Source: Zygnema cylindricum
Taxonomy: Eukaryota > Streptophyta > Zygnematophyceae > Zygnematales > Zygnemataceae
Reading direction: 5' to 3'
Assembly (NCBI GenBank): GCA_037447655.1
Contig: JBBHKE010002295.1
Coordinates: forward strand, 1-64,000
Length of the DNA: 64,000 nt
This document shows positions 1,632 to 61,177 of this stretch, in pieces. The position numbers and the translations under genes are program-made. Each line of letters begins with the position of its first letter. The stretch's first letter is position 1. Under the pieces are notes generated by a model. That model worked only from the letters and a program-made list of their open reading frames with translations, had not been told where the DNA came from and did no database searches.

Positions 1632-2580
1632 TGTAATTCTCTGACCTCCATCGGTCCACAGAATGTCCAGCTTATATGAAGCCTCTAGGATATTATTTGC
1701 ACTTTTGACTCTAGCAATGAATAAATGCCACCGTTTCACGCAAAAACTTTGACCGACTACATCTTTATGTAGCCTGGACTCCGTTGAGTACGCAACAAAA
1801 AGAATCACTGAAATTGCTCACTTGAGCATTAAGTAATGGCCGGCCAAAGATGGCCTGTAAATACAAAAGCAATATGGGAGAGAGGCGGCTATCTTAATTT
1901 TTCCTGTCCTAATCTCCCTCTCTAAACCTACTACTAGTGTACCCTAACCAATAAAATGACTGTAAGGTTCAAGAAGATACAGGTACCGCTGTACTTCTGT
2001 TACGGTCATAGTACGCCATGGCTGCTCTGCTGACGCGTGTCAGTTCTTGAGCCGTAGTTGCTCCCCCCGTAATATTCGTTGTCCAACCATATCTCGCCAC
2101 TTGTCTTCTGTCGACATTGGCTTGCAAAGCGCCAAATGTCCACTCCGGAATTTCGACTCCTCCGCGAGCCGTCGATCACGAACGACATTTGATTTCGTCC
2201 GTTGAAATTAGATGTCGTTTTGTTTATTTCGTATGGTACAATATTTCGTGCGGTACTGTACGTTTCATGTTCATTTTGTTTCGTATGTGTCGCCGCGTCA
2301 CTATTTTAATATTTATCACACACAGTAAACCTAACACTTCATCAAGACCTATTGGATAAAGCGAACAGCTACGTTGCAGGGGTGTTATCTGGAGGTCACA
2401 AGATCAATTCTTGCTCCTAATTGGTTATCTTTTGCAGGGGCTATTTCTTGCGCCGTCTTCTTATCTGCCGGAGACAGCCATGGTTGCGTGTCTGTTCTTA
2501 GTGACTACGACAAGTATGAGAACTATAGAATGACCATATACTAACAAAAGAGATAGAATACAAAATACCCTTTTTCAACA
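1632..2580 (-). mobile_element. Solo LTR of a copia element (949 bp)
   Basis: On the minus strand it starts TGTTGAAAAAGG with the family 5' box and ends GAATTACA. It is flanked by CAGCC (1,627-1,631) and CACCC (2,581-2,585), a 5-bp target duplication with one change. The right arm lacks it at the matching site, which confirms insertion. Its last bases (ATGGAGGTCAGAG...) correspond to the U5 end of the other LTRs here, including the in-frame ATG. It also contains the CCATGGCTG block and an antisense tRNA-like module. The internal region was presumably lost by LTR-LTR recombination. Confidence 0.8.
2347..2433 (+). other. tRNA-like Pol III module, antisense within the solo LTR
   Basis: Read on the plus strand, there is a D-arm/A-box-like segment (CCTATTGGATAAAGCG), then a T-arm CAAG-ATCAATT-CTTG containing the perfect B box GATCAATTC, then TTTT at 2,430-2,433. 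The LTR is on the minus strand, so the module is antisense to it. No full acceptor stem is seen. Confidence 0.5.
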
Positions 2581-4004: not shown

Positions 4005-4462
4005 TGTTGAAATCACTAGATTTATGGAGTATTTTCTAGGTTTAAATAGCTTAGTAGAAACTCTTTGTAAGGCATGACTAAAGAGTGACATAAGTCACTC
4101 GAAACAAAAGGTTGAGTCCGACAGGACTCGAACCTCCGACCGGTAGAGCGAGGCGTAGCCGTCAACTCTAACCGGTCTGTCGTAGAAGTTTGTTAAATTA
4201 CATAGGGTTTGATAAATACTTAAACTGTGTTATGATCTTATAACCAATTAACTGAATTATGAATGAAGGAACAAAATACTAGTTAATATATAGTGCGAAC
4301 GTGATCCTACACGAAACAAATGAATCGGACATTTGTTATGACGGCTAACATTAAATGACAGATTTAATCCAACGCCATATATCGCCGCGAAGATCCCGAA
4401 ATGGTAACTTTGGCGTTTTTTGACGTTGCTTAACCTACCGCCACGTGGAGGGATAACATTTG
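4005..4462 (+). repeat. A1 5' LTR, first part
   Basis: This is the upstream half of the A1 LTR. It holds the conserved start (TGTTGAAAT ... TATTTTCTAGG) and the antisense tRNA-like module. It ends in ATTTG, the target duplicated on B1 insertion; the rest resumes at 10,967. Confidence 0.8.
4106..4186 (-). other. tRNA-like Pol III module, antisense in A1 LTR
   Basis: On the minus strand, a D-arm-like GACCGGTTAGAG is followed by a T-arm AGG-TTCGAGT-CCT (B box GTTCGAGTC, 4,123-4,133) and TTTT at 4,106-4,109. CGACAG and CTGTCG bracket the unit like a short acceptor stem. The middle can also fold as one long hairpin (GACCGGT..ACCGGTC), so this is not a functional tRNA. Confidence 0.6.
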
Positions 4463-4680
4463 TGTAGAAATTGATGGTTATTTTTAGTATTTTCTAGGTC
4501 TAAAATATAATGCAGAAAAGAAGTCGAGGCAATCTGCCTCTAACTCCTCTCTTCAACTCCCACACTTGTTGCAGTCACTGAAAGTTGGAGAGGAAGCTAG
4601 ACCCATGGCTGCCTATGCTATCCAGTGATTTAGAGGTAGAAGATTAGTTGATATACGGGTAGTAGATTAATTGATTTACT

Positions 4681-4783
4681 AAAAGAATACATGTCGGAAC
4701 CACGATTTGATCCTAGTACCTACCTTCCGTCAAAGCTGCTAGTAGCCTGTAGCTTTAGCCGTTTAGTCTAAGACTAGTGTTAG
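4681..4783 (-). other. tRNA-like Pol III module, antisense in B1 5' LTR
   Basis: On the minus strand, an A-box-like TTAGACTAAACGGCTAAAGC is followed by a degenerate T-arm with loop ATCAAAT (B box near 4,703-4,713) and then TTTT at 4,681-4,684. The copy in the 3' LTR (about 10,109-10,213) has decayed in its B box. Confidence 0.5.
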
Positions 4784-5145
4784 GTCATATGAGGTTTGAT
4801 AAACCTATAAATGTTTCCACGTCGACAAATTCATTTAACGATAACTATTTACTGGATACATAGATTCGGTTATATAAAATGCGGATTAAGGTACGGAGAA
4901 GAAACAGGTACCGCGCATTTGTTTCGATAGCGAAACGAATACCGCGCAGGTATTTATGACGGCTAAGATTGAAATATGCATTGAATCGGACGACAAAAAT
5001 AAATGCCGAGATCGCGCACAAGGATTTCGGCGGTTTGTGGTCATCGCCACATCGGATGACACGTGGCACCATGACATTGGATTTTGGCATCTTTAGGGAT
5101 AACGGAAACAAATCCGGATATGACATGTGTCGACTTTTTGGCCAT

Positions 5146-5200
5146 GTCGTACAATGTCCGTACAAAAAGTACACCGACACTTGTACTTTTCTGTACGACA
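5146..5200 (+). promoter_or_regulatory. GTAC cluster (SBP/copper-response type) in B1 5' LTR
   Basis: Five GTAC cores lie within about 55 bp, including TCCGTACAA, which fits the published SBP-domain consensus TNCGTACAA. The outer and inner sites are arranged as inverted pairs (GTCGTACA..TGTACGAC and AAAGTAC..GTACTTT). The same cluster lies at 10,575-10,630 in the 3' LTR. Binding is inferred from the motif only. Confidence 0.5.
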
Positions 5201-5309
5201 TAGTAATATGATTAGTGCCATACATCAGTAGATAGAGTTTTAAAGAGAGATAGAACTTAGAAAAATTTGGTAGATAGGACCGTCTCTCCCAGAGAGCTTC
5301 TGTACAAAA

Positions 5310-5438
5310 GGTCAACTTTGACCCTCTATAACTTACTGCTCAAGGGAGCAAATTCAGAGATTTTTTTTGCTATCGATTCAAGGGAGTCTTGCCTTTACAC
5401 AGGTGAAGGTGGTCAGAGTTTTTTTCTGCCAAGGTGGC
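5310..5438 (+). other. Series of short RNA hairpins in the B1 leader
   Basis: In order: GGTCA-ACTT-TGACC (5,310-5,323), TGCTC-AAGG-GAGCA (5,337-5,350), GATTC-AAGG-GAGTC (5,375-5,388), a weaker hairpin around CACAGGTG (5,391-5,408) and GCC-AAGGT-GGC (5,428-5,438). The same order recurs in the other families, with different stem bases that still pair. The position between the TATA region and gag suggests the leader of the genomic RNA. Confidence 0.6.
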
Positions 5439-5534
5439 ATTTATTCTTGCTGAAACACAAAAGGGTCAGCGTTATCCTAGAGGCTTTTTGCAAGCTGCCC
5501 TTTCTGAGGACCTTTTGGAGGTCTCAGTGTTTCA

Positions 5535-5549
5535 GGTCATGGGCCCACC
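5535..5549 (+). promoter_or_regulatory. B1 primer-binding site (initiator tRNA-Met anticodon region)
   Basis: GGTCATGGGCCCACC follows the LTR directly. Apart from one base it is the complement of the plant initiator tRNA-Met anticodon stem-loop (GGTGGGCCCATAACC), not of the tRNA 3' end. Confidence 0.75.
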
Positions 5550-8500
5550 CTCTAAGGTACCTATATTTAATGGAACTGGCTTCATATACTGGGAAAGTAT
5601 GATTACACGAGCTCTATGCGAGAAAAGGTTTTGGGGGATAGTGAGTGGACGAGTGCAGTGTCCATAAAGTCTTGGCATCCCTCCAAGGTTTGGAGGAGGC
5701 ACATTCACCAAGAAAGCAGATCCATCTCCAAAAGAGGAGACAAAGGAAGGGGAGGTGGTGGACAAAGGAAAGGAGAAAGAGACCACCACACCAATAAAAA
5801 CTAGTTCGGCATTCATATCACCTATTCTGAGGAACGAGGAGAAAGATACTGATACCTGGAACTTCAACAATATGGCGGCAAAGCACTTCAATCTCCGCCA
5901 TCTTACTCAAGGGCTTGCATTTCCTCATTTGCAGGTAGAGAGGGCATCCGATCTTTGGGTGGCTCTCATAGAGATGTATTGAAGTGGTACGATTCAACAA
6001 GAACTGTTGGCTGATCAGAAAAATTAATGAGTATGTATACAAAGGGGGGAAGATGTTGGATTTTTGTAATGAGCTCGCAAAACTTTTTATGGAACTAGAG
6101 AGTTTGGAAAAGTATTTAGTGAAAATGAAAAGGTTAATTGTTTACTGATGAAGTTACCCGATGAGTTCGCGAACATAGTCAACCGTGTGTAGGACTTGGC
6201 GGACTCAAGGTGGATATGGAACTTATTGGTAGGGATGATTCTCGTTCAGGAGAATACGATTGAGATCCGAACGGGAGGAAAGAGTCGGCAAGCCTTCACA
6301 GCTGGGACCGATTAGAGGAAAAAGGATTCCCTGAAAACAGGTCGATAATTACAGAGGGGGGGGGGGGCAAAAAAATTAGACGGACGAGTTCAGACAAAGG
6401 GCTCCCCAGGGTTTATGTCATTTTTGAAAGAAACCAGGGCACTATATGGCGAAGTGCACAAAGCTAACCGAGCTTCGGTTAAAAGAGGGGCAAACTAGTG
6501 GACCCTCGAGAGGAAAGAAAAAGGCCCTTGTGACACAGGTACATGAGGTGGAATCCGAAGACGAGGATGATGAGCTCATATTGGATGAGAAGTTGGAGGC
6601 GACAAACGAGGTTGAAATTCCACGAAAGCATAAATGTGCTTTCGGTGGATTGAAAGGTGAAGCAGGCTGGATTGTAGATTCATGTGCCTCCATGCACATG
6701 TGTAAGGATAAATACCTGTTCACTAAGATAAGAAAGATTCCCACCATAGAGATAGAGTACGGGGATGGGAGGATAGTCACAACTACTCTTGTATGATCGG
6801 TAAATCTTGAAGTGTTAGTAGAATGAAAGACATCCATAGTTACATTCTCCGATGTATTGTTTATTCCGGAGCTGAACAAAAACCTCATCTCTACGTCTGT
6901 ATTAGATGATAAGGGTTTTGATACTAGCACTAGGAAAGGAGTCTTTACTGCTAGTTTTGAGGAGGAAGTTTATTTCACTGCTAAAAAAGGTAGCCAAGAG
7001 ATGTTTAGGTTGATTTTAAGCAATGAAAAGAAGAAACTTTATTATGCTGGTGTTCATGATATAATGTTGTGGCATAAGAGGCTTGGGCATGTGAATCTAG
7101 ATAAGTTAATAGTGATGAAAAAGATGGGAATGGTGGAAGAGATTTAGTTCAGTGAAAGTGAGAATCTAAGTGATTGTAGTGGATGTGTTCAGGGTAAAGC
7201 ACACTAGTTACCGTTCCCAAAAACTGCCACCTATAAGGGAGAAAAAATTCTAGATTTAGTACACACAGATATTTGGGGGCCGGTCAGAGTGCCATCACCT
7301 GGGGGGAAGAGACTTATGATGACTATCACTGATGATTGATCTCGGTATTCCAGGGTGTATTTTTTGAAAAACAAGTCAAAAATTCAAGAATGTTTTAGAC
7401 AATATAAAGCATGGAGCGAAAAACTCCATGAAACTCTGATCAAGAGAGTAAGGAGTGACAATGGTGGAGAGTATGCTTCTAACCAATTTGAGGATTTTCT
7501 GAGGGAAGATACAGTTCAACACCAAAAGACAGTTCCAGAAAATCCGGAAAGAATGGGGTAGCTGAAAAATTAAATAGGACACTAAGTGATAGTGTTAGGA
7601 GTATGTTGTCGGATAAGAAGATAGGAAAAAGGTTTTGGGCAGAAGCAATGAATTCTGCTAATTATCTCAAAAATTGAGTTCTTACTTCATTTATGAAAGG
7701 TCAAACACCTTATGAGAGATGGACCGACCGGAAACCAGATATATCTCATTTAAAGGTTTTCGACAGTTAAGTATTGAGTCTAGATACAGATCGGTCTAAT
7801 TAGAAGCTAGATCCTAAAGGAAAACCGGGGTACCTATTTGGATATGATGAGGATGTTAAAGGATATAGAGTTAATGATCTAAAAAGGGAAGATATAATCT
7901 TAGTAAAGCATCTATTAGTTATGGATGAAGAAAAGTCTGTGGATCCCTTCATGTATTCAAAGTCAGTAAAAATCAGATTTGAGTCAGAAAATTCCGATGA
8001 CTTTGACCTTCTTAACTATCCAGGTTTTAGAGAAGATGACATTCTTACAGGTACAAATCAAACCCGAAAAGACTCGTCTACGGAAACTCCAGTGACAACT
8101 CTACCCGAAGTGGAAGATGTGGTGGAAATTGATTCGGAATCGACCGACAAGGGAGAAGCCGAGATTGTTCGAAAAAACCCACGAGAACCATCTATTCCGA
8201 CCACAAATTTTGAGGGAGGAAGGAGAAGTTGCAAAAAGTTGCAAGAAAAACAGGTTAATAGCAAGGTAACAAAACTATCTCATCAAGATGAACCTCAAAC
8301 TTATGGAGAGGCAATGACTTGTCTAGAAAAGAACCGGTGGAAGACAGCCATCAATGAGGAGATGGCCTCAATTATGGCAGCTGATACTTGGGAGTTAGTA
8401 GATTTTCCACCTAACCGTAAACCAATCGGTTGTAAGTGGGTGTTCAAATTAAAACTGAACCTAGATAATACCATTGAGCGTTACAAAGCCTGGTTAGTGG

Positions 8501-9877
8501 CAAAAGGATTTACATAGAAAGAAGGAATAGACTACGAGGAAACCTTTGCCCTGGTTTTCAGATTTCCCTCCGTCCTCATACTTCTCAATCTGGCTGCAGC
8601 GAAAGACATGGAGGTGCACCAGATGGATATCAAGATAGCCTTTGTACATGGAGAATTGGAAGAGGAGATCTTTACGCGACAACCCGAAGGATTTGTGGAG
8701 GAAGGAGAGGAGAGTAAGGTATGCAGGCTAATTAAATCTCTTTATGGTATCAAACAGGCGTCTCGATAATGGAATAAGAAGCTCGATGAGTTTCTTACCG
8801 GTCCGGGATATATTCGGATCAGCTCAAATCACTCAATCTATGTTTTTGAAGATGAGGAAGGTGTTATTTTTTTTGTAATTTATATTGATGATTTTGCTTG
8901 TCTTAAGTAAATTAATGGAAAAAATTAATAAACTGAAAACCGATCTTAAAGGGAGATTTGAGATGAAGGATATGGGGGAGGCATGATATATTTTGGGAAT
9001 TCAAGTAGAAAGAGACTGAGAAAGAAAGATTAAAAGATTGATTTAAAAGGAAGCAATAGGGAACATGTTGGAAAATTTTCAGATGGATAAGGCTAATAAT
9101 TGTACAACTCCCATGGAGTTAATGAAGGGAAGTGAGGGGAATGAGGAAGAAGGAGTCATAGTATTAGACAAGGAATTAAGTCATGAAAAACAGAAGTTTA
9201 TGCAGATTATTATTTACAGGCAAGTAGTGGGAAGTCTAATTTATTTTATGAATTGTACCCAACCAGATTTAGCTGCAGCTGTAGGAGTGCTGAGTAGAAG
9301 TCAAAATGCTCCCACTAAGAGGGATTGGGAGGCGGCTAAGAGAGTCCTTAAATATTTGATAGGAACTAGGGATCTATGATTGCATTTGGGTAGGGAGAAT
9401 ACTGACAACACTACTTGGAGTGATGCCAGTTATGGTGATGCTCCGATGAGGAGATCTACTTCTAGATATGTATTATATATGGGTGATGGGGCTTGTTGTT
9501 GGAATACCAAACAACAAAAGGTTATTGCTCAGTCCACCATAGAGGCTGAGTATATGACCTCTTGCTCTGCTGTAAAAGAAATGATGTGGGTGAAGTCTTT
9601 GCTTGGTGAGCTTGGTTACATAAAGAGTGGTGTGCAATTTTTTTTTTGTGATAATCAGGTAGCAATCGCTATTTTGGCCAATCCTAAACATCATTTTAAA
9701 GCCAAACACATGGACATTAGACTCGGCTTTGTTAGAGAGAAAGTAGAAAACAAAATAATCAGTTTAGAGTACCGACCAGATAGGGAGATGGTAGGAGATA
9801 TGATGACCAAACGTGTGCCTTCCCCTAAGCTAATTTTTTGCAGGGAGAAGTGTGGTCTGAAATTAAAGAGTGACTAG
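5539..9877 (+). pseudogene. B1 gag-pol, inactivated
   Basis: Gag begins at the ATG inside the primer-binding site (MGPPSKVPIFNGTG) and is stopped after about 42 codons; several further stops and frameshifts follow. Recognisable parts are a CCHC knuckle near 6,414-6,458 with its second Cys replaced by a stop, a protease site DSCAS instead of DSG (about 6,675), the integrase HHCC motif (HKRLGH about 7,072; DCSGC about 7,170), integrase catalytic regions (HTDIWG about 7,260; SDNGGEY about 7,453), RT with a frameshift in the YxDD box (about 8,880), and RNase H from 9,380. The frame ends at 9,877, 13 bases before the 3' LTR. It cannot make active Pol; it could at most be mobilised in trans. Confidence 0.9.
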
Positions 9878-9890
9878 AAGATAAGGGGAG

Positions 9891-10961
9891 TGAAGAAATT
9901 GATGGTTCTTTTTAGTATTTTCTAGGTCTAAAATATAATGCAGAAAAGAAGCTGAGGCAATCTGCCTCTAACTCCTCTCTTCAACTCCTACACTTGTTGC
10001 AATCACTAAAAGTTGGAGAGGAAGCTAAAACCATTGCTGCCTATGTTATCCAGTGATTTACAAGTAGAAGATTAGTTGATATACGGGAAGTAGATTAGTT
10101 GATTTACTAAAAAAAATACCTATCGGAACCAGGATATTATCGTGGTACCCACCTTTCGTCAAAGCTGCTAGTAGTCGGTAGCTTTAGCTGTTTAGTCTAA
10201 GACTAGTGTTAGGTCATATGAGGTTTGATAAACCTATAAATGTTTCCAAGTCGACTAATTCGTTTAGCGATAATTATTTACTGGATACATAAATTCAGTT
10301 ATATAAAATACGGATTAAAGTACGGAGAATAATCAGGTACCGCGCATTTGTTTCGATAGCGAAATGAATACTGCGCAGGTATTTATGACGGCTAAGATTC
10401 AAATCTGCATTTAATCGGACTATCGGAATGAATGTCGGGATCGCGGAAGAAGATTTCGGCGGTTTGTGTTCATCGCCACATCGGATGACACGTGGCACCA
10501 TGATATTGGATTTTGGCATCTTCAGGGATTACGGAAACAAATTTGGATATGACATGTGTCGACTTTTTGGCCATGTCGTACAATGTCCGTACAGAAAGTA
10601 CACCGACACCTGTACTTTTCTGTACAACACAGTAATATGATTGGTGCCGTATATCAGTAGATAGAGTTTTAGAGAGAGATAGGACTTAGAAAAATTTGGT
10701 AGATAGGACCGTCTCTCCCAAAGAGCTAAGGAACAAAAGGTCAACTTTAACCCTCCATAACTTACTACTCACGGTAGCAAATTCAGAGATTCTTTTTGTT
10801 ATCGACTCACGTGAGTCTTGCCTTTACAGTGGTAAAGGTGTTCAGGTTTTTGTCTGCAAGGGTGGCGGTTATTCTTGCTGAAACACAAAGGGGTCATGGT
10901 TATCCTATAGGTTTCTTGCAAGGTGTCCTTTATGAGGACCTATGGAGGTCTCAGAGTTGCG
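9891..10961 (+). repeat. B1 3' LTR
   Basis: It starts TGAAGAAATT (TG kept, third base changed relative to the 5' LTR) and ends TTGCG, where CA has mutated to CG. It is followed by the ATTTG duplication. The GTAC cluster, hairpins and U5 ATG (ATGGAGGTCTCAGAG) are conserved, while the tRNA-like B box is degraded. Confidence 0.88.
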
Positions 10962-14353: not shown

Positions 14354-15408
14354 TGAAACTCTGAGACCTCCATAAGTCCTCTGAGTGGACAACTTCCTAG
14401 ACGCCTTTAGGATAACCCTGACCCCTTTCTGTTTCAGCAAAAACAACTCCCACCCTGGCAGACAATAACTCTGACCAACTTCACTTTTGTGAAGGCAAGA
14501 CTCCCCTGAGTTGATAGCAAAAAGAATCTCTGAATTTGCTCCTCTGAGCAGTAAGTTATGGAGGGTCAAAGTTGACCTTTTGTACAGAAGCTCTCTGGGA
14601 GAGAGGGTCCTATCTCCTAATTTTTCTAAGTCCTATCTCTCTCACAGACTCTATCTACTGATGTATGGAGCAAATCAGATTAGAGTTCCGTACACAAAAG
14701 TACAGCTGTGGGTGTACTTTCTGTACGCACACTGTACGACATGGCCTAAATGTCGACACGTGGTATGTCTGGATTCGCCCCTTTAATCTTCGGAGATGCC
14801 GCGATCAAATGATCTTCGGCCATGTGTCATCCGATGTGGCGATGACCACAAACCGCCGAAATCCTCTTCCGCGATCTTGGCGTTAATTCCGGCCGTCCGA
14901 TTTAATTCACATTTAATCGTAGCCGTAATAAATACATGCGCGGTATTCGTTTCATTAAAAAAATAAATGCGCGGTATTGGTTTCTTATCCGTAACGTAAT
15001 CCGTACTTTTAAATTACTGGATCTATGTATCCCGTAAACAGTTACAGTTAAATGAATTATCCTACTTGATAATGTTTAATTAAATATCAAACCATATAGT
15101 ACGTAACACTAGTTCTAGACTTAACGGCTAAGGCTACCAGCCAGCGGTTGTCTGCCGTCCGGTAGGTACCAGGATCAAATCCTATGGCCGACACATACCT
15201 TTTAGTAAATAAACCCCTAACTAATATATATTTCCTGTAAACCTCTAGATAGCCTAGGTAGCCATGGCTCTAGCTCCCTCTCCAATTTCTCAGTGACTGC
15301 GACAAGTTTGAGAGTTCGAGAGAGAAGTTAGAGGTAGACTACCTCGGCTTCTTTCTTTATTTCTATTTAGACCTAGAAAATACTTTAAATGGACCATTAA
15401 TTTCTACA
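14354..15408 (-). repeat. B2 3' LTR
   Basis: On the minus strand it starts TGTAGAAATTAATGG and ends GAGTTTCA. It contains the GTAC cluster (14,688-14,745), the hairpin leader (GGTCA/TGACC and TGCTC/GAGCA types) and the antisense tRNA-like module at 15,105-15,203. Confidence 0.9.
15105..15203 (+). other. tRNA-like Pol III module, antisense in B2 3' LTR
   Basis: On the plus strand, an A-box-like TAGACTTAACGG (15,116) precedes a T-arm AGG-ATCAAAT-CCT with perfect B box GATCAAATC (15,173-15,181) and TTTT at 15,200-15,203. The 5' LTR copy is at 26,030-26,127. Confidence 0.55.
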
Positions 15409-15421
15409 CTCCCCTAATTTT

Positions 15422-18884: not shown

Positions 18885-19070
18885 CCTTTTGTTATATTTG
18901 TGTATTTTCTAGGTCTGTAATAGGATAGAAAAAGGCAGAGGCAGTCTGCCTCTAACTCCCCTCTCCAAGCCCCCACACTTGTTGTAGTCACTGAAGGCTG
19001 GATAGGGAGCTAGAGCCATGGCTGCCTATGCTCTCTAAAAAAGACAGGGGGTAAATTAGTAAGACTTACC

Positions 19071-19170
19071 AAAAGGTACTTGACGGACCCAGGAATTGAT
19101 CCTGATACCTACCGTCCGTCAATCTGATCTTAGCCGGTAACTTTAGCCGTTTAGACTAGAGCTAATGTTA
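19071..19170 (-). other. tRNA-like Pol III module, antisense in C1 5' LTR
   Basis: On the minus strand, a TAGTCTAAACGGCTAAAG A-box region precedes a T-arm CAGG-ATCAATT-CCTG (perfect B box GATCAATTC) and TTTT at 19,071-19,074. An identical arrangement is in the 3' LTR at 22,132-22,230. Confidence 0.6.
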
Positions 19171-19539
19171 CGACGTATGGGGTTTGATAAATATCTAAAT
19201 AGTTACACGTAGACTAGTTCATTTAACTGGAAATATATACGTATTGTATAGATACAGTTATGGATAGTACGGAGTACGGATTTCTTTATTGAAACGGATA
19301 CCGCGCATTTGGTTCGACCGCGAAACAAATACCGCGCGTCTATTTTCAACGGCTAGAAATGTAGACGGATATGATCGGACGGCCACGATAGGCGTCGCGA
19401 TCACGGGATATGTACTTCTGGCGGTTTGCGGTCATCGCCACATAGGATGACACGTGGCACGTCAACATTGGATTGCGGGGCCACCGGAGATTACGGGAAC
19501 AAATAGATATATGACATGTGTCGACATTTCAGCCATATC

Positions 19540-19600
19540 GTACGATTGTCGTACAAAAAGTACACCGACACCTGTACTTATCTGTACGGTACAGTAAAGT
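19540..19600 (+). promoter_or_regulatory. GTAC cluster in C1 5' LTR
   Basis: Six GTAC cores lie in about 60 bp (TCGTACGA, TCGTACAA, AAGTACAC, CTGTACTT, CTGTACGG, GGTACAG), matching the layout in B1, B2, D1 and E1. The 3' LTR copy is at about 22,598-22,655 and has lost one core. Confidence 0.5.
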
Positions 19601-19689
19601 GATTGGTGCCGTACGTCAATAGATTGGGTCTTAGAGTGAGAATAGGACTTAGAATTTTTTGAGTAGGTAGTCGCCTCTCCCAGAGAGCA

Positions 19690-19830
19690 TCTTTTATAAA
19701 TGGCTAACTTTGGGCAGCCATAACTTTTAATTTACTTGACCATTTTCAGTGATTCTTTTTGCTGCGGACTCAGATGAGTCCAGGCTACACAAAGGTGTAG
19801 TCGGTCAGAGTTTTTGTCTGCCAGGGTGGC
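19690..19830 (+). other. Leader hairpins in C1 5' LTR
   Basis: ATGGCT..AGCCAT is followed by GGACTC-AGAT-GAGTCC (19,766-19,781), CTACAC-AAAG-GTGTAG (19,785-19,800) and GCC-AGGGT-GGC (19,820-19,830). The stems differ from those of B1, A1 and D1 but still pair. Confidence 0.6.
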
Positions 19831-20050
19831 GGTATTTCTAAGGGAAAGTCAAAGTGGGTAAATGTGTCCAAATCTCATATTCTAACTTTGCAATCTGTGG
19901 TGGAACTGACCACACAAAAAGTGCTATTTCACAGGGGTGAATCAATATTTGGGTTCTCATTGTCAAGGGGTCAATCATTTCGGTTTATATCAACTTGGAG
20001 CCGGCACTATCTAGATAAGCTAATTTTGGATCTGCTTACTCTGAGGGCCA

Positions 20051-21112
20051 ATGGAGGTCTCAGAGTTTCAGGTTATCGGCCCACCATCTAGGGTGCCTAT
20101 GTTTGATAGAACACGCTTCACGTATTGGGCGTTTACAATGGAGGGATTGCTTTTCGAGAAGCACTTATGGGGAAGTGTTGCGGGACAAGTGAGATGTCCG
20201 CCACCTGGCTTTGGAGGAGCTTACTACGGAGAATCATGTGAGACTGCCCAGAATATCATCCGGAGTTCAGATGCAACGGAAGGTGAAGGGAAAAACCTTT
20301 CCGTGGATGGGGAAATAGGGGAGAAGGAAAAAGGGACACCTATGGTTAGGGGAGCTAGGCTCTCAGCTATGGTACCACATGTAGAGATTAAAACTGAAGA
20401 AAAAGACGGAAAAATATGGGAATACAAAAACACTATAGCAAAACATCTCATACTTAGATATGTCTCTAAGTCGATAGCTATCACTCCTTTAAGTCTAACC
20501 AAGTCTTCAGAGATATGGGAAACACTAAGTCAGATTTATAAGAGTGAGACTATTCAAAGGCAGCAATTAGTAAAACAGGAAATAAAGGCCTATGTTTATA
20601 AAGGCGGTAGCATGATAGAGTTTTGCAATGATGTTGCTGCGTTATATGTTGAGCTAGCTAGTGCGGGATATGTAGAATCTGAGGAGAGTAAGATTAATAC
20701 ACTACTTATGAAACTCCCAGATGAGTACGAAAACATCATTTGTCGTATGCAGGCACTTGATGGTTCCTCATGGACTTGGAGCTTTACCATGGGGATAATT
20801 CTTGTGAGGGAAAGCACTTTGGAGCTTTGTAGGGGAAGTGACAGAGTGAATGCATTTACAGCTGGTGGTGATTGGCGGAAGCGTGATGAGAGGAACGCCG
20901 GTGACGAGCGAAAGCGTGATGAGAGGATGAAAGACAAAGGTAAACCTTATCAGAACTTTGATAGAAAGAGAGGGAGAGGAAAAGACACGGGAGCTTTGAA
21001 AAAAGGGGTTTGCTTCTTTTTTAGGGAACCGGGTCATTATATGGAAGAATGCCCTTGTTTGGAAAAACTTAGAAGTTGGAATGTGGATGAGGAGGAAGAA
21101 AGGGAAGCGTAG
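20051..21112 (+). CDS. C1 Gag-like protein
   Basis: This open frame of 353 codons starts at an ATG in the last 20 bases of the 5' LTR (MEVSEFQVIGPPSRVPMF) and reads straight through the primer-binding site. The alternative in-site ATG used by other families is ATC here, so the LTR ATG is the likely start. The body resembles copia gag (YWAFTMEGLLFEK; KAYVYKGGSMIEFCNDV; LLMKLPDEYENIICRMQ). Near the C-terminus the knuckle reads CFFFREPGHYMEEC, so the second Cys of CCHC is Phe. It would build the virus-like particle. It is the only intact gag in the window. Confidence 0.8.
   Translation: MEVSEFQVIGPPSRVPMFDRTRFTYWAFTMEGLLFEKHLWGSVAGQVRCPPPGFGGAYYGESCETAQNIIRSSDATEGEGKNLSVDGEIGEKEKGTPMVRGARLSAMVPHVEIKTEEKDGKIWEYKNTIAKHLILRYVSKSIAITPLSLTKSSEIWETLSQIYKSETIQRQQLVKQEIKAYVYKGGSMIEFCNDVAALYVELASAGYVESEESKINTLLMKLPDEYENIICRMQALDGSSWTWSFTMGIILVRESTLELCRGSDRVNAFTAGGDWRKRDERNAGDERKRDERMKDKGKPYQNFDRKRGRGKDTGALKKGVCFFFREPGHYMEECPCLEKLRSWNVDEEEEREA
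20071..20085 (+). promoter_or_regulatory. C1 primer-binding site
   Basis: GGTTATCGGCCCACC follows the LTR end. It is the initiator tRNA-Met anticodon-region complement with one mismatch. Confidence 0.7.
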
Positions 21113-21949: not shown

Positions 21950-23130
21950 TGTTGATATTTGTGTATTTTCTAGGTCTGTAATAGGATAGAAAAAGGCAGA
22001 GGCACTCTGCCTCTAACTCCCCTCTCCAAGCCCCCACACTTGTTGTAGTCACTGAAGGCTGGATAGGGAGCTAGAGCCATGGCTGCCTATGCTCTCTAGA
22101 AAAGACAAGGGGTAAATTAGTAAGACTTACCAAAAGGCACTTGACGGACCCAGGAATTGATCCTGATACCTACCGTCCGTCAATCTGAACTTAGCCGGTA
22201 ACTTTAGCCGTTTAGACTAGAGCTAATGTTACGACTATGGGGTTTGATAAATATCTAAATAGTTACACGTAGACTAGTTCATTTAACTGGAAATATATAC
22301 GTATTGAATAGATACAGTTATGGATAGTACGGAGTACGGATTTCTTTATTGAAACGGATACCGCGCATTTGGTTCGACGGCGAAACAAATACCGCGCGTC
22401 TATTTTCAACGGCTAGAAATGTAGCCGGATATGATCGGACGGCCACGATAGGCGTCGCGATCACGGGATATGTACTTTTGGCGGTTTGCGGTCATCGCCA
22501 CATAGGATGACACTTGGCACGTCAACATTGGATTGCGGGGCCACCAGAGATTACGGGAACAAATAGATATATGACATGTGTCGACATTTTAGCCATATCG
22601 TACGATAGTCGTACATAAAGTACACCGGCACCTGTACTTATCTGTATGGTACAGTAAAGTGATTGGTGTCGTTCGTCAGTAGATAGGGTCTTAGAGTGAG
22701 AATAGGACTTAGAATTTTTTGAGTAGGTAGTCGCTTCTCCCAGAGATCATCTTGTATAAATGGCTAAATTTGGGCAGCCATAACTTTTAATTTACTCGAC
22801 TATTTTCAGTGATTCTTTTTGCTGCGGACTCAAGAGAGTCCACGCTACACAGGGGTGTAGTTGCTCAGAGTTTTTGTCTGCCAGGGTGGCGGTATTTCTA
22901 AGGGAAAGTCAAAGTGGGTGATTGTGTCCAAATCTCATATTCTAACTTTGCATTCTGTGGTGGAACTGACCACACAGAAAGTGTTATTTCACAGGGGTGA
23001 ATCAATATTTGGGTTCTGATTGTCAAAGGGTCAATCATTTGGGTTTATATCAACTTCGAGTCGGCACTATCTAGATAAGCTTCTTTTGGATCTGCTTACT
23101 CTGAGGGCCAATGGAGGTCTCAGAGTTTCA
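21950..23130 (+). repeat. C1 3' LTR
   Basis: It has the same length as the 5' LTR (1,181 bp) and starts TGTTGATATTTGTG. The differences are scattered single changes, for example in the G-box (GACACTTGGC) and one GTAC site. Confidence 0.92.
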
Positions 23131-25278: not shown

Positions 25279-26333
25279 TGAAACTCTGAGACCTCCCTAA
25301 GTCCTCAGAGTGGATAGCTTCCAAAAAGCCTCTAGGATAACCCTGGCCCCTTTGTGTTTCAGCAAAAATAACAACCACCCTGGCAGACAATGACTCTAAC
25401 CAACTTCACCTCTGTGAAGGCAAGACTTCCCTGAGTGGATAGCAAAAAGAATCTCTGAATTTGCTCCCCTGAGCAGTAAGTTATAGAGGGTCAAAGTTGA
25501 CCTTTTGTACAGAAGCTCTCTGGGAGAGAGGGTCCTATCTCCTAATTTTTCTAAGTCCTATCTCTCTCACAGACTCTATCTACTGATGTAAGGAGCCAAT
25601 CAGATTACAGTTTCGTACACAAAAGTACAGCTGTCGGTGTACTTTCTGTACGAACAGTGTACGACATGGCCTAAATGTCGACACGTTGTATGTCCGGATT
25701 CGCTCCCTTAATCCTCGGAGATGCCGCGATCCAATGTCATTCCGCCACGTGTCATTCGATGTGGCGATGACCAAAAACCGCCGAAATCCTCTTGCGCGAT
25801 CTCGGCGTTAATTCCGGTCGTCCGATTAAATTCACATTTAATCGTAGCCGTAATAAATACATGCGCGGTATTCGTTTCATTAAAGAAATAAATGCGCGGC
25901 ATTGGTTTCTTATCCGTACCGTAATCCGTACTTTTACATTACTGGATCTATATATCCCGTAAACAGTTACAGTTAAATGAATTATCCTACCTGATAATGT
26001 TTAATTAAATATCAAACCATATAGTACGTAACACTAGTTCTAGACTTAACGGCTAAGGCTACCGGCTACCGGCTGTCTGCCGTCCGGTAGGTACCAGGAT
26101 CAAATCCTGTGGCCGGCACATACCTTTTAGTAAATAAACCCCTAACTAATATATATTTCCCGTAAACCTCTGGATAGCCTAGGTAGCCATGGCTCTAACT
26201 CCCTCTCCAATTTCTTAGTGACTGCGACAAGTTTGAGAGTTGGAGAGAGAAGTTAGAGGTAGACTGCCTCGGCTTCTTTCTATATTTCTATTTAGACCTA
26301 GAAAATACTTTAAATGGACCATTAATTCCTACA
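25279..26333 (-). repeat. B2 5' LTR
   Basis: On the minus strand it runs from TGTAGGAATTAATGG to GAGTTTCA. It has a G-box (CCACGTGTC about 25,745), a GTAC cluster (25,612-25,670), the TATA/hairpin region (25,440-25,515) and the antisense tRNA-like module at 26,030-26,127 (B box GATCAAATC, then TTTT). Confidence 0.9.
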
Positions 26334-27310
26334 TCTCCCTCCCTCCCACCTCACCTTCTTCCTCCTCCTCTCTTATCAAAAACCTTATTTTTCCTTTTTA
26401 TCCTCCTCCTCCTCCCATTTACTTCTTCCCCCGCCTCACTTCCCTCCCCCTCCTCAACCGTTGTCTTTTTTCCCCTTCTTTCCTCACCTATTGCCGCCTC
26501 CCCCCCCCCTTTTCCACTCAATGTATTCTCTTCCCCCCCCCCCCATCTCACCTTTTTCCTCCTCCCTCTTATCAAAAACCCTATTATTCCTTTTTATCCT
26601 CCTCCTCCTCCTCTCTACTCCTCCCCCCCGCCTCACTTCCCTCCCCCTCCTCAACCATCGCCTTTTTTCCATTTCCTTTCTCACCTAGTGCCCCCCCCCC
26701 CTTTCCCACTCAATGTATTATCCTCCCCCCCCCCCACCTCACCTTCTTCCTCCTCCTCCCTCTCATCAAAAACCTTATTTTTCCATTTTATCGTCCTCCT
26801 CCTCCTCTCTATTACTCCCCCCGCCTCACTTCCCTCTCCCTCCTCAACCGTCGCTTTTTTTCCCCTTCCTTCCTCACCTAGTACCGCCTCCTCCCCCCCC
26901 CCCTCCCCACTCTATGTATTCTCTTCCCCACCCACCTCACCTTCTTCCTCCTCCTCCCTCTCATCAAAAACCTTATTTTTCCTTTTTATCGTCCTCCTCC
27001 TCCTCTTTACTCCTCCCACCGCCTCATTTCCCTCCCCCTCCTCAACCGTCGCCTTTTTTCCCCTTTCTTCCTCATCTAGTGCCGCCTCCCCCCCCTCTCC
27101 CCACTCAATGTATAATGTATTCTCTTCCCCACACACCTCACCTTCTTCCTCCTCCCTCTCATCAAAAACCCTATTTTTCCTTTTTATCCTCCTGCTCCTC
27201 CTCTCTACTCCTCCCCCCGCCTCACTTCCCTCCCCCTCCTCAATCGTCACCTTTTTCCCCTTCTTGCCTCACCGTCTACCTCCTCCTCCCTACTCACCTC
27301 AACAGATGCA
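26334..27310 (-). repeat. Minisatellite of about 187-208 bp units (Arg/Glu-coding on minus)
   Basis: About five tandem units are marked by CCTCAACCGTCGCC at about 26,450, 26,648, 26,842, 27,029 and 27,237, and by ATCAAAAACC in each. On the minus strand the units can encode Glu/Gly/Arg/Lys-rich peptide (RIKRKNRVFDEREEEE). C-run and T-run length changes shift the frame between units, so it is probably not one long coding sequence. Confidence 0.75.
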
Positions 27311-27480
27311 CCGTTTTCCTCCCCTCCCTTCTTTCCTCCTTCCCATCCAATGGCTAACACGGTTGCCGCCTCCCGTTGCCTCGCTAACTCTTCTGCGGTC
27401 GCCGTAACAAGGGGAGGATAGCGACAGCGATAAGCCATCACGATACATGGTTGCCTACTTTGCTGGCTGCTGCCCTCCAT
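27247..27480 (-). CDS. Hypothetical ORF at the start of the foldback right-arm repeat
   Basis: This 77-codon frame (MEGSSQQSRQPCIVMAYRCR...) begins just outside the minisatellite and runs into it. The left arm carries a counterpart at 3,521 with many of the same residues (VMAYRxRY, PxVTATAxEL, QRE, LAIG). The shared reading frame in diverged arms hints at former protein coding. I recognise no family. It may be the N-terminus of a larger protein whose remainder is the repeat, or a chance frame. Confidence 0.3.
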   Translation of the reverse strand: MEGSSQQSRQPCIVMAYRCRYPPLVTATAEELARQREAATVLAIGWEGGKKGGEENGASVEVSREEEVDGEARRGKR

Positions 27481-29921: not shown

Positions 29922-30012
29922 AAAAGGATTGACGGACCTAGGATTTGATCCCGGTACCTACCCTCGGTTAATCTAGACGTTAGTCTTAACCTGTAGTCTA
30001 AGACCAGTGCTG
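29922..30012 (-). other. tRNA-like Pol III module, antisense in E1 LTR
   Basis: On the minus strand, an A-box-like TTAGACTACAGG precedes the B box GATCAAATC (29,942-29,950, T-arm GGG-ATCAAAT-CCT) and TTTT at 29,922-29,925. Confidence 0.5.
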
Positions 30013-39418: not shown

Positions 39419-40318
39419 TGTTGAAAAGAGGTAATTAATAGTTCACTTCTATAGTTTAGTTAGAATGTAAAGAGAGAGAAAGAGAGAACCAAAGGCAAGC
39501 CATGGCTGCCGCGTCATTTATGAGGGAGAATGAAATAGAAGGTAGTTTACTATTTGTAGCAAAATACAGCCTCTAGCCGGATTTTAACCGGGGTCTACGG
39601 AGTACTACTTAGACCCTAGCCTTATCCATTAAGGCACTAACGAAACGATATACATATTACGTTTCACGCATATTTTTCTATTTGTTAAACGGGCTAATTT
39701 GCAGCAGACTAACGAAAACACGCATTAATCAATTCATGCATGGAAGCGAATCGAAGCCGCATAAATACAAATGATCGGACGACCACAATTGCAGCCGCCA
39801 CCCGTAATAAACTTTCGGCGGCCTTTGGGGATAGGGTCACGCGACGCCACATGGCACCATACTATTGGATACCGGAGAAGATGGGAGGAGGAACCATGGC
39901 TCCCGTTTTCACAGGCGTCACTTTGAAAGCCATATCGTACAATGGCCGTACAATAAGTACATCGCCTAATGTACCTTCTTGTACTATATAGTGTTTCTAT
40001 TGGACTAGGGTTTAGTAGTAGGCAGTCGTAAGTAGGCAGACCATGACTTAGTGAAATTTAGGTACCTCTCTCTAAGAGAGCTTGTAACTATAAAGGTCAT
40101 CTTTGACCAACCATAAGTTACTGCTCAGGGGAGCAAATTCAGTGATTCTTTTTGCGTTTGACTCAAGGGAGTCTTGTCCTCACAGGGGTGAGAGTGGTCA
40201 AAACATTTGTGTGCCTGGGCGGCGCTTATTCAGCGGGATAGTAGAAGAGGCAAATATTATCCTAGAGGCTTTACATAGGCTGCTCATTCTCTGGGTCAAT
40301 GGAGACCACAGAATTGCA
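39419..40318 (+). repeat. D1 3' LTR
   Basis: A 900-bp LTR with the tRNA-like module (39,561-39,640), GTAC cluster (39,928-39,990) and hairpins. The hairpins are GGTCA/TGACC (40,095), TGCTC-AGGG-GAGCA (40,122), GACTC-AAGG-GAGTC (40,160) and CTCAC-AGGG-GTGAG (40,179). Confidence 0.88.
39561..39640 (-). other. tRNA-like cloverleaf, antisense in D1 LTR (best preserved)
   Basis: On the minus strand it has a D-arm GCC-TTAATGGATAA-GGC (39,619-39,635), an anticodon-arm-like hairpin GGGTCT..AGACCC (39,591-39,616) with an enlarged 14-base loop, a T-arm CCGG-TTAAAAT-CCGG (39,577-39,591) and TTTT at 39,561-39,564. The D-arm is of the TAATGGATAAGGC type common in tRNA-Arg. No acceptor stem is seen, so it is not scored as a tRNA gene. 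Confidence 0.6.
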
Positions 40319-54933: not shown

Positions 54934-55819
54934 TGTTAAAAAGAGGGAATTAATACTTCACTTCTCTACTTTAGTTACACTTTAAAGAGAGAGACTGAGG
55001 ATCAAAGGCACGCCATAGTTGCCGCCATATTTAGAAAGTGGCAGATTTTGAGGTAGAGGATATTTTACCAAAATGTTCCCTACGTCCAGATTTTATCTTA
55101 GGTCGGTCTGTGGTTCACTATGCAATCGTTAGCCTTATCCACTAAGGCGTTATCGAAACGATACACATGACGAATTTTAAAGATATATAAACATTAACGC
55201 GACGGATAAATAACACCAAACTAACGAAGAGGAACAATTAATGCCGTCATGTCGAACGTGTAAAATATGATTTGATCGGAGGACCAGCATTGTAGCCACC
55301 ACCCGAAGTGAGATTTTGGCGGCATTCAAAGATTGCGTCACGCGATGCCATGTGGGGCCGCATTATTTGATATCGGAGAAGATGGGAGAAGGAACCATGG
55401 CTCCCGATTTGAGAGGTGTCACCTTGTAGACCATGTTGTACAATGGACGTACAATAAGTACATCGCCCATTGTACCTTCTTCAACTATATAGTGTTCTTA
55501 TTGGACTAGGGTTTAGTAGTAGGTAGTCGTGAGTAGGCAGACTAAGACTTAGTGATATTTAGGTATCTCTCTCTAAGAGATCTTGTAACTATAAAGGTCA
55601 TCTTTAACCAACCATAACTTACTGCTCAGGGGAGCAAATTCAGTGACTCTTTTTGCGTTCGGCTAAGGGAAGTCGGGTCCTCACACGGGTGAAGGTGGTC
55701 AGAATAAATGTGTGCCTGGGTGGCACTTATTTAGTGGGAAAGTGAAAGGGGCAAATATTATCCTAGAGGCTTTGCATAAACTGCCTATTCTTTGGGTCAA
55801 TAGAGACCACAAAATTGTA
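54934..55819 (+). repeat. D2 5' LTR
   Basis: 886 bp, starting TGTTAAAAAGAGGG and ending ATTGTA. It has an antisense tRNA-like module (55,070-55,149; D-arm GCCTTAGTGGATAAGGC kept, T-arm decayed), a GTAC cluster (55,433-55,490) and leader hairpins including TGCTC-AGGG-GAGCA (about 55,622) and GTGCC-TGGGT-GGCAC (about 55,711). Confidence 0.85.
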
Positions 55820-57884: not shown

Positions 57885-59301
57885 GCAATTCTGTGTCCCC
57901 CATTGAACTGCAAAATTGAGCAAGCCTCCAGATAGCTTTTGACTAACCCACTTTTAACTAGAACTGCTGCTACCCAAGCAGGTTAATAGACAATCTCACT
58001 GCACCGCCGTGGAGTACGGACTCCCCTGAGTCCACAGCAAAAATTATCAACAAAAACACCCAACCAAGCGATTAATTATGAAATGGCAAAGATGCCTATA
58101 TTTATACAAGCTTGTTGGGAGAGAGGCGACTACCTCTTCAATCCTCTAAGTCCTAAACTCCTCTCACAACCCCTATGTACTTATGTACGAACCAATCAAA
58201 GGATTGTATAGTACAGAAAAGGTACTGTGACCGATGTTTTTTCTATACAGCTGGAGTAGGACAAGGCCATAGAGGGGACGTCTTTTTTCTTCGGACTTGT
58301 CCTCATGCTCTCCGGGATTCCCGCTTCCCAATGATATCTTGTTACGTGTCGATAGGTCATGTCACGTCCAAAAACCGCTAAGGCGGCTATTCCGAGATCT
58401 CAGCGATGATGCGGACCGTTAGATCCAAACCGACTTTTAATGCTCGCCGTCCAAAATAACATATGTCCGGTACATTTGTTTCATGCGCACTAAAACTCAA
58501 CTAGTTTCTATGCCCTTAATTTATTATTCCGTTGAACGAATTAATGACATAGCTAATGTTTAAATAGCTATCAAACCCCTCTCACAACCGCTATCTAATG
58601 ATGTAGGAACCAATCAAAGGAGTGTATAGTACAGAAATGGTAATACGACCGATGTACTTTCTATACGGCTGGTGTACGACAAGACTATGGAGGGGACGTC
58701 TTTCTCCTTCGGACTTATCCTCATGCTCCCCAGGATTCCCGCTTCCCAATGATATCTTGTTACGTGTCGATAGGTCATGTCATGTGCGAAAACCGCGAAG
58801 GTGGCTATTTCGGGATCCCGACGATGATGTGGACCGTCGGATCCAAACCGACTTTTAAAGCTCGTCGTCCAAAATAACAAATGTCCTGAACATTTTTTCG
58901 TGCGCATTAAAACTTAACTAGTTTCTACGTCTTTAGTTTATTATTTCGTTGAACGAATTATTGACCTAGCTAATGTTTAAATAGCTATCAAACCCTATGT
59001 ATCCTAACGGACTACTACGACAGACCGGTAAGAGCTAACGGCTACGCCTCGCTCTGTCGGTCGAAGGTTCGAGTCCTACCGAACTCAACCTTTTTGTTGA
59101 GAGTGACTTAGGTCACTCTTGAATCCTGCCTATAGAGCTGAGGCAGCCATGGCTCCATCGCCCTCTCTCTCCTTCAGTGACTACAACAAGTATGGGGGCT
59201 AGAGAGAGAAGGTGGAGGCTAGCTACCTATGCTATTTCTTTTAGTTATTTTACCTAATTAAGACCTAGAAAATACCTTCCCTAAATCTAGGGATTTCAAC
59301 A
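57885..59301 (-). repeat. A2 3' LTR with internal 417-bp duplication
   Basis: On the minus strand it starts TGTTGAAATCCC and ends GAATTGCA. A segment of about 417 bp is repeated in tandem (about 58,160-58,577 and 58,578-58,994). Marker strings ACCAATCAAA (58,191; 58,609) and ATAGCTATCAAACCC (58,564; 58,981) are 417-418 bp apart. The copies differ at many sites, so the duplication is not recent. It doubles the GTAC-containing part of U3. Confidence 0.8.
59018..59095 (+). other. tRNA-like Pol III module, antisense in A2 LTR
   Basis: On the plus strand, CGACAG, a D-arm-like GACCGGTAAGAGC, a T-arm AGG-TTCGAGT-CCT with perfect B box GTTCGAGTC, and TTTTT at 59,091-59,095, 13 bases past the T-arm. 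It is the A1-type module; the middle forms an alternative long hairpin. Confidence 0.6.
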
Positions 59302-59314
59302 CTCACATTATTTT

Positions 59315-61177
59315 CTAGTCTAATTTTAGTTTCTCTTTTAAACCACACATTTCTCTGCAGTATTCTAACTTGGGAGGTGGCACAGGTTTTGTAATCATAT
59401 CAGCCACCATGTCCCTATCACCCCTATACACTAGATTCACAATTTTGTTTTCAACCATTTCCTTCACAAATCTCAATCTTTCATCCATATGCTTAGCCTT
59501 GAAATGATGTTTTGGATTGGCTTCAATTGCAATTGCAGCCTGATTATCACAAAACATTTCATGCAGTCCCTTCTTCATATACCCTAGTTCTTGAAATAAA
59601 GACTTGACCCACATCAACTCTTTCACAGCTAAACAAGAGGCCATGTACTCCGCCTCCATAGTAGACTGAGCAACCACCTTTTGTTGCTTGCTACTCCAGC
59701 AGCAAACACCTTCCCCCACATACAACACATACCCAGAAGTGCATCTTCTCATAGGTGCATCCCCATAATTGGCGTCACTCCAAGTAGTGATGTCAGTGTG
59801 CTCCCCTCCCAAATAAAACCATAATTCCCTTGTTCCCACCAAGTATCTCATAAATTTCTTGGCTGCCTTCCAGTCTCTTTTCCTATGATCATTAAGACTC
59901 TTAGTGAGGACTCCAACTGCTGCTATAATGTCCGGTCTAGTACAATTCATAAAGTATATCAAACTTCCTACAACCTGTCTGATAGGAATAGACTTCATAA
60001 ACTGTCTTTCTTCTAGACTCATCTGATCATCTAGTATTGTAACTCCTCCTTCTACACTCCCATCACTTACTTTCTTCAAGTCCATGGGACTGGTACAACT
60101 GTTTGCCATTTCCATCTGAAATTTCTCAAGCATATTTCCGATCGCTTCTTTCTCAGAAAGTCTGATTATTCTCTTCCCTCTATCTCTTCCCATTTGAATC
60201 CACAAAATATATTTAGCCTCCCTTAAATCCTTCATATCAAATTTGCTTCTAAGGTTTTTCTTTAAATTATGGATCTTTTCCATAAACTTACTTAACACGA
60301 GCAAATCATCCACATAAATTGCAATAAAAATCACACTATTCTCATCCTCAAACATGTAAATGGAATGGTCAGAACTGATCCGAATATATCCCAGACTGGT
60401 AAGAAACTCATCTAGTTTCTTGTTCTATTGTTTGGGAGCCTAATTCAGTCCATATAAGGTTTATGAGCCTGTAGACTTTGCTCTCTTCTCCTTCCTCTTT
60501 AAATCCCTCTGGTTGTCGCATGAAGATTTCTTCCTCTAGTTCACCGTTGAGGAAAGCGGTCTTGATATCCATTTGGTGTATTTCCATGTCTTTCACTGCT
60601 GCTAGCCTAGGAGAATCCTTATAGATGGGAACCGAACCGCCAGAGCAAAAGTCTCCTCATAATCTATCCCCTCTTTTTGGGTGAACCCCTTTGCTACTAA
60701 CCGAGCCTTATATCTCACAATGGTATTATATGGGTTCAGCTTCAATTTAAATACCCATTTGCACCCGATAGGTTTTTTGTCTAGAGGATAATCCACCAGC
60801 TCCCAAGTATTAGCTTCCATGATGGAAGCCATCTCATCATTTATGGCTCTGACCCATCGGTCTTTCTCCGGACTGTCCATTGCCTCCAAGTATGACTGAG
60901 GCTCATCTGGGTGAGATAGCTTTGTTACCTTGTGAACAACATGTTTGTTTTGTAGCCTTTTGCTGCTCCTTTGTCCTCCCTCAAACTCTGAATCTGGAAT
61001 GGATGGAAGTCTCGGGTTCCTCCGTACTGTGTCATCGGCTCCCCTATCCATGGGAGCCGGTTCCGGCTCCTTCTCCCCTATCTCCTCGAAGTGTATAGAG
61101 ATATGAGGAGATCCCGGTGTATCTCCCCCATCTTGGATCTTCCTTGAATTTGAAATCACGTTTTCACTTGTGTCCAT
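59315..61177 (-). pseudogene. A2 reverse transcriptase and RNase H
   Basis: The C-terminal 346 codons (60,355 to 59,315) are open and include YVDDLLVLSK (about 60,320) and a full-looking RNase H (SDANYGDAP, MEAEYMAS, FCDNQAA). The protein ends LKEKLKLD. Upstream, frameshifts break RT near 60,360-60,440 and 60,600. An open segment at 61,177-60,602 covers the linker and RT fingers ([20 protein letters not shown]). It would copy the element RNA, but the frame breaks make this copy inactive. Confidence 0.85.

Follow-up and report, generated by a model that had tools for sequence, protein, structure and literature searches.

A putative antisense, tRNA-derived Pol III unit in the U3 region of Copia LTRs of Zygnema cylindricum

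Pol III units in long terminal repeats (LTRs) are already known from Cassandra, Helenus and foamy viruses. In Helenus (TRIMp3, Kojima 2024), a tRNA-like sequence with A and B boxes is located inside the LTR, most fungal Helenus elements have anticodon-loop primer sites, and "not a few LTRs" in Repbase are said to resemble part of a tRNA (PMC10886601). Helenus elements are short non-autonomous TRIMs, and their tRNA part was proposed to make the template RNA; autonomous partners were argued to need Pol II, and extended LTR similarity between them and TRIMp3 was considered unlikely (PMC10886601). Cassandra TRIMs are non-autonomous and carry 5S rRNA sequence in the LTR, which is transcribed into the element RNA (PMC10886601). 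Foamy viruses harbor Pol III miRNA cassettes with A and B boxes in the U3 of the LTR, and some of these give two-hairpin RNAs (PMC8674446, PMC7693620). Our search of open-licence PMC papers found no antisense Pol III unit in the LTRs of Copia elements with coding domains, and none common to coding Copia families.

We analysed a stretch of 64,000 nt (the window; contig JBBHKE010002295.1) from the 352.8 Mb assembly of Z. cylindricum. As in Helenus, its LTRs contain a tRNA-like sequence with A and B boxes (PMC10886601). For Helenus, a sense orientation of this sequence is implied and not stated, and the paper nowhere uses the word antisense (PMC10886601), whereas the units described here were antisense in 12 of 12 cases in the window and in 10 of 10 cases in eight further stretches of the genome. 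Unlike the short non-autonomous TRIMs, the LTRs of the window are about 0.9–1.2 kb long and flank Copia coding domains (PMC10886601). A Pol III promoter and terminator conserved in the LTR are shared with Cassandra, but the Cassandra promoter derives from 5S rRNA and the window units are of the tRNA type (PMC10886601). Rfam scans detected no 5S rRNA match in the window, which separates its elements from Cassandra. The Pol III cassettes of foamy viruses are on the sense strand. Like these cassettes, the window units lie in the U3 of an autonomous type of retroelement, and the units of one family (E) likewise form two hairpins before the T run; foamy viruses differ in being animal retroviruses whose miRNAs were shown by sequencing (PMC8674446, PMC7693620).

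Copia elements and primer-binding sites

The window is a nest of Copia elements, and gag, integrase or RVT_2 domains (Pfam) were detected in eight of the nine ORFs scanned. The ORFs are broken pieces, and present-day autonomy of the elements is presumed. One reverse transcriptase ORF had matches at 38–51% identity among the best 120 of 5442, the named ones being from seed plants. Elements A and I are flanked by 5-bp target-site duplications; element I has 1.9 kb between its LTRs and only a gag ORF. The boundaries and primer-binding sites used below were as follows.

4463-10961, plus strand: element A
4463..5534, plus strand: 5' LTR of element A; the target-site duplication ATTTG flanks the element
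14354..15413, minus strand: 3' LTR of element C, with the 5' LTR at 25279-26339 (BLAST boundaries)
18890..20070, plus strand: 5' LTR of element I, with the 3' LTR at 21950-23130; target-site duplication CCTTT
20071..20085, plus strand: primer-binding site of the half-tRNA type, similar in sequence to the complement of the anticodon arm of tRNA-iMet, directly 3' of the 5' LTR
5535, 11410, 30714 and 55820, plus strand, and 25264 and 63636, minus strand: other primer sites of the half-tRNA-iMet type, directly after 5' LTRs

Seven half-tRNA primer sites (at most three mismatches) were found in the window, compared to a mean of 1.05 in 20 shuffles. A full-length tRNA-Met primer site, as is usual in plants, was rejected with three matches in the window versus 4.5 expected. 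A half-tRNA-Met primer site right behind the 5' LTR, as judged with a tRNA sequence that is not this genome's own, is the arrangement of Bryco-like Copia elements. In plants, such primers were described for Osser, Bryco (moss) and part of the Gymco-II Copia elements (PMC6317226). The window elements share with them the primer site beside the 5' LTR, the Copia domains and the 5-bp target-site duplication, and are likened to them by these features and not by phylogeny; an antisense Pol III unit is not mentioned in the passages that describe Osser, Bryco and Gymco-II (PMC6317226).

Two repeats were seen in the nest. Five tandem copies of a C/T-rich repeat of roughly 197 bp adjoin the 5' LTR of element C (26329-27311), with a related piece of 93 bases at 14254. 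A direct duplication of about 420 bp (58155-58995; 87.5% identical) lies apparently within the LTR of the element carrying unit E2. Close by, at 59498-59565 on the minus strand, a microRNA family of Rfam was matched below threshold (24.6 bits, E 0.98), which is most likely due to chance.

Antisense units in the window and in other genomic DNA

The initial annotation had listed a tRNA-like Pol III unit at eleven places of the window, as present in every sufficiently complete Copia LTR and always antisense. A profile HMM matched all eleven places and revealed a twelfth unit, at 10,111-10,206 in the 3' LTR of element A, which that list had overlooked. The twelve strong matches had E values from 8.6e-12 to 3.7e-24, and the next match had 0.71. 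The HMM was trained on eleven of the window units, and eleven of its twelve matches are its own training units, so it serves here only to fix the coordinates. All twelve units are in the U3 of half-tRNA-primed Copia LTRs; their distance from the LTR start, measured in six of these LTRs, was 141–322 bp. The antisense orientation held for every unit when the LTR strand was assigned by primer site, R-U5 or LTR homology.

2342..2430, plus strand: unit F1, in a solo LTR, element on the minus strand; HMM E 1.4e-13; degenerate B box AGATCAATTCT; shuffle test not significant
4104..4186, minus strand: unit E1, in the LTR of a plus-strand element split by element A; HMM E 1.2e-13; B box GGTTCGAGTCC, T4 14 bases on
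4683..4777, minus strand: unit A1, in the 5' LTR of element A; HMM E 1.2e-23
10111..10206, minus strand: unit A2, in the 3' LTR of element A; HMM E 1.2e-21; degenerate B box CGATAATATCC
15109..15202, plus strand: unit C1, in the 3' LTR of element C, element on the minus strand; HMM E 5e-22
19072..19164, minus strand: unit I1, in the 5' LTR of element I; HMM E 4.8e-22
22133..22225, minus strand: unit I2, in the 3' LTR of element I; HMM E 1.4e-21; not a training unit
26034..26127, plus strand: unit C2, in the 5' LTR of element C, element on the minus strand; HMM E 3.7e-24
29922..30007, minus strand: unit J1, in the 5' LTR of element J; HMM E 1.5e-16
39561..39643, minus strand: unit D1; HMM E 4.4e-12; B box GGTTAAAATCC
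55068..55156, minus strand: unit D2; HMM E 8.6e-12; degenerate B box AGATAAAATCT; shuffle test not significant
59015..59096, plus strand: unit E2, element on the minus strand; HMM E 8.1e-14; B box GGTTCGAGTCC, T5

A box, B box and T run have the order and spacing of a type-2 Pol III promoter with its terminator; the likeness is weak in the A box for E and in the B box for A2, D2 and F. In family D, 12 of 20 genomic copies have the B box GGTTCAAATCC, from which D1 of the window differs (GGTTAAAATCC). An R-U5 piece ending near 40,903, apparently without U3, had no unit.

Element A, together with its ATTTG duplication, sits apparently inside the LTR of element E1, the remainder of which seemingly extends to about 11,407. 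Read in the direction of the E1 unit, the insertion lies 276 bp upstream of it. As the sole case, it proves nothing about a targeting of new insertions to the unit, and this idea was dropped.

We scanned the first 450 bp of each LTR (293 bp for E1) for A box, B box and T4 together and compared the result to 300 dinucleotide shuffles. On the antisense strand seven of nine LTRs exceeded the shuffles (p 0.003–0.04, uncorrected). D2 (p 0.21) and F (p 0.42) were not significant, and in F the best site was not the unit. No qualifying site was present on the sense strand of the nine LTRs. A looser scan of whole LTRs for B box and T4 only gave sites in 9 of 11 LTRs antisense and in 3 of 11 sense. A lack of B-box and T-run enrichment over shuffled LTRs, named in the initial annotation as evidence against the unit, was not what these nine LTRs of the window displayed.

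Further DNA of the genome was sampled in eight stretches (L089-L096; 69,006 bases) from the window's contig and six contigs known via unit matches; the stretches lie beside those matches and exclude them. Probes for R-U5, which exclude the unit but derive from unit-bearing families only and would miss unit-free LTR families with diverged R-U5, identified 11 LTRs. Two of these run off the stretch too early for the unit to be seen; the other nine all have the unit, in antisense orientation. The unit HMM gave ten matches with E≤4e-9, all inside LTRs, and the next match had E 4.8. These ten correspond to the nine LTRs found by R-U5 and to L089:366-447, in the LTR that ends at window position 63,651; all ten units were antisense. 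L093, L094 and L096 had neither an R-U5 LTR nor a strong HMM match. In L096 a sequence resembling a primer site occurs at 659, and no LTR was recognised with it; the corresponding unit would fall outside the stretch. At 27 further R-U5 places, which include the window and of which several are double calls of one LTR, a consensus score of at least 14 was reached antisense in 13 and sense in two. A first look at the genome gave 3383 and 693 candidates for two of the units, of which 40 each were scored. The unit is probably present in a great many LTRs of this one genome. A free-standing SINE was rejected, as all ten strong HMM matches in the 69 kb sample were inside LTRs. With these ten matches and seven of nine LTRs passing the shuffles, a chance origin of the motifs was also rejected at the family level.

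Conservation, tRNA likeness and folding

We aligned 24 units, three of which (D3, D4 and E6) had been chosen by motif or unit search. The T run that had been noted shortly after the B box was confirmed: at least four Ts started 14–18 bases after the B box in all 24 units. In a separate set of 25 C copies, T4 was lost in one (L025). T4 is a minimal terminator for Pol III. For comparison, T4 was found within 25 bases downstream in 11 of 29 tRNA loci of this genome, the boundaries of which are rough. Within the B box, position 2 was G and position 9 was T in all 24 units, and position 4 was T and position 10 was C in 23 units each. Variation occurred mostly at positions 3 (A15/T9), 6 (A18/G6) and 8. 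Positions 6 and 8 are free in tRNA genes.

The mean pairwise identity among 16 divergent copies was 0.97 for T4, 0.78 for the B box, 0.64 for the A box and 0.67 for an upstream block, compared to 0.45 between A and B box, 0.39 between B box and T run, 0.45 upstream and 0.51 downstream; the families are homologous, and the copies are therefore not independent in these counts. When 420 bp of U3 were aligned for nine LTRs, many conserved columns likewise lay in T run, B box and A box. When 11-base segments of the 16 copies were ranked by conservation, the top 25 comprised eight from the A and B boxes, one from upstream and 16 from two further blocks of U3. Since these 16 fall in two blocks nearer the LTR start, U3 has further constrained parts, and both blocks are at least as conserved as the boxes of the unit. 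On the C1 reference the blocks are at about 296-312 and 329-347, with no obvious Pol III match.

Two sets of copies were fetched by the unit itself and describe conservation within a family only. In 25 C LTRs (24 of 28 fetched, which passed a length filter, and that of the window), identity was 0.96 for the A box, 0.97 for the B box and 0.98 for T4 versus 0.87 for the rest of the LTR; the B and A segments ranked only in the top 7% and 10%. In 20 D copies, identity was 0.994 for the A box, 1.0 for T4, 0.955 for the B box, 0.924 between the boxes, 0.936 upstream and 0.972 downstream, and the B box was conserved no better than the downstream stretch. The initial annotation had proposed a conserved antisense promoter of Pol III type, and as far as comparison goes this is supported by A box, B box and T4 standing above the adjoining stretches, by the pattern of B-box variation and by the presence of the unit in nine of nine assessable LTRs from DNA beside known copies. 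The DNA upstream of the A box is A+T-rich, with TATCAAAC in 7 of 15 copies and TAAC closer to the box in 11 of 15 (by eye). Plant tRNA genes have A+T-rich, TATA and CAA signals (PMC11700998). The upstream signals of the units may fit this pattern, but the agreement is suggestive only.

A check of the units with tRNA models, which the initial annotation had recommended, was negative: neither ARAGORN (bacterial setting) nor Rfam detected a tRNA in the window or in the 20 genomic D copies. A true tRNA gene was rejected, as no cloverleaf was recognised in either set. We then compared a 17-base D arm of the units to seven tRNA types of this genome. Identical positions to tRNA-Arg(TCT) numbered 14-15 for D, 13-14 for C, 14 for F, 10-14 for A, 10 for I and J and 8-9 for E. 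tRNA-Arg was best or tied in 21 of 24 units, with p≤0.02 against shuffles in 13 of 24. The A-box part of the E copies was better than shuffled sequence in none of six; the exact B box of tRNA-Arg (11/11) was present in four of these six. The B boxes of D and E matched best to tRNA-Phe, Gln or Arg and mostly have the elongator-type GGTTC. Most A, C, I and J units carry GGATC. This is the form found in initiator tRNAs. In 38 other loci (about 115 kb) the unit HMM gave six matches with E≤1, five of which (0.0005 to 0.8) were on tRNA-Cys or tRNA-Arg genes in the right strand; the sixth (L039) was off the tRNA, and most tRNA genes of these loci were unmatched. The simplest account of these likenesses would be a single ancient capture of a tRNA-Arg-like sequence, with E as the weakest fit.

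The arm pairing that had been claimed for D1 was reproduced in a single-sequence fold, which gave D-, anticodon- and T-like stems, but across families pairing of the D and T stems was only partial. In the predicted fold of the E copies, two hairpins precede the T run. RNAalifold energies (100 shuffles) were -31.5 antisense (z -4.95) and -25.0 sense (z -3.0) for E, -5.5 (z -2.35) and -2.5 (z -0.7) for the combined A, C, I and J group and -18.2 (z -2.8) and -13.2 (z -2.9) for four D copies. The pair counts for E were about equal on both strands, in a comparison of G-U pairs with each structure derived from its own strand. The lower antisense energy in all three groups leans towards an antisense RNA but is not decisive.

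Interpretation and significance

We consider it fairly probable, judging from the sequence, that this is a tRNA-derived type-2 Pol III unit, kept by selection in antisense orientation in U3, and that it would make a short antisense U3 RNA. Its source would be a tRNA gene most like tRNA-Arg(TCT), fixed antisense in the U3 of a half-tRNA-primed Copia ancestor, with selection acting on promoter and terminator and not on the tRNA fold. A and B boxes would recruit TFIIIC, TFIIIB and Pol III; transcription would start in the A+T-rich upstream stretch and stop at the T run. The predicted product is a structured antisense RNA of roughly 90–120 nt, confined to U3. A unit in the 5' LTR would be directed outwards, facing away from where Pol II starts; the RNA of a unit in the 3' LTR would be antisense to the U3 portion of the genomic RNA and terminate short of pol. 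The conserved stop makes sense if Pol III runs there, because without it transcripts from the 3' LTR would continue into pol as antisense RNA. Much of the conserved U3 near the unit is, as judged from these alignments, what Pol III would need, in order, with the terminator inside the LTR and antisense.

The same conservation might reflect sense-strand U3 elements, either a Pol II promoter or enhancer or a structured 3' end of the genomic RNA, which merely resemble Pol III boxes. We regard this as unlikely. It would account for the 16 of 25 most conserved segments in two neighbouring U3 blocks without Pol III resemblance, for the same fold z-score of the D group in sense and for E hairpins that pair about equally in sense. 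It does not predict that the conserved columns form an A box, a B box and a T run, ordered and spaced as for Pol III, that the B box varies mostly at positions free in tRNAs, that the D arms match tRNA-Arg at 14-15 of 17 positions and four of six E B boxes at 11 of 11, or that the antisense fold energy is lower in three of three groups. Alternatively, the unit could be a fossil: a tRNA, or a SINE derived from one, that entered an ancestral LTR in antisense long ago and was passed on without use. Such a history would leave degenerate boxes in several copies and no remaining tRNA fold, as was seen, and a single origin would agree with homologous LTRs having it at one place and on one strand. Under neutral decay, however, the boxes and the T run would not be expected to stay conserved while identity drops to 0.45 between A and B box and to 0.39 between B box and T run, and such a fossil appears distinctly improbable.

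Ty3 has a bipartite primer site, and in a similar way a U3 sense strand complementary to a tRNA could aid capture of the primer tRNA. The GGATC of most A, C, I and J units and the tRNA-iMet-like primer sites would agree with this. D and E, with mostly elongator-type GGTTC and best B-box matches to tRNA-Phe, Gln or Arg, do not; moreover, the primer half would be without the T arm and a conserved T run is not predicted, so we give a role in primer capture very little probability. Almost none is left for chance motif matches in A+T-rich LTRs: the single-LTR tests fail for D2 and F, but seven of nine LTRs pass antisense against no qualifying sense site in nine, and all ten strong HMM matches in other DNA are inside LTRs.

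If selection has maintained a tRNA-derived Pol III unit here, the element may benefit from a short antisense or regulatory RNA, or the occupancy by Pol III factors may keep U3 open or bounded; we hold both to be about equally likely. Only tentatively can we propose a wider scenario, in which a coding group of plant Copia elements would have a dedicated antisense Pol III gene in U3, whose structured small RNA might serve, like that of foamy viruses, as a precursor of small RNAs. This gene would go back to a single capture from a tRNA-Arg-like gene and would have been retained as the families diversified, to control the element's own genomic RNA or the chromatin of U3. If the unit is transcribed, these Copia elements would be retrotransposons with their own Pol III gene opposing their Pol II transcript. 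They would allow direct study of the use of Pol III factors by LTR elements, be it for antisense control, as a chromatin boundary or for attracting further insertions. LTR-borne Pol III units would then extend from short parasites and foamy viruses to coding plant Copia families, in antisense orientation.
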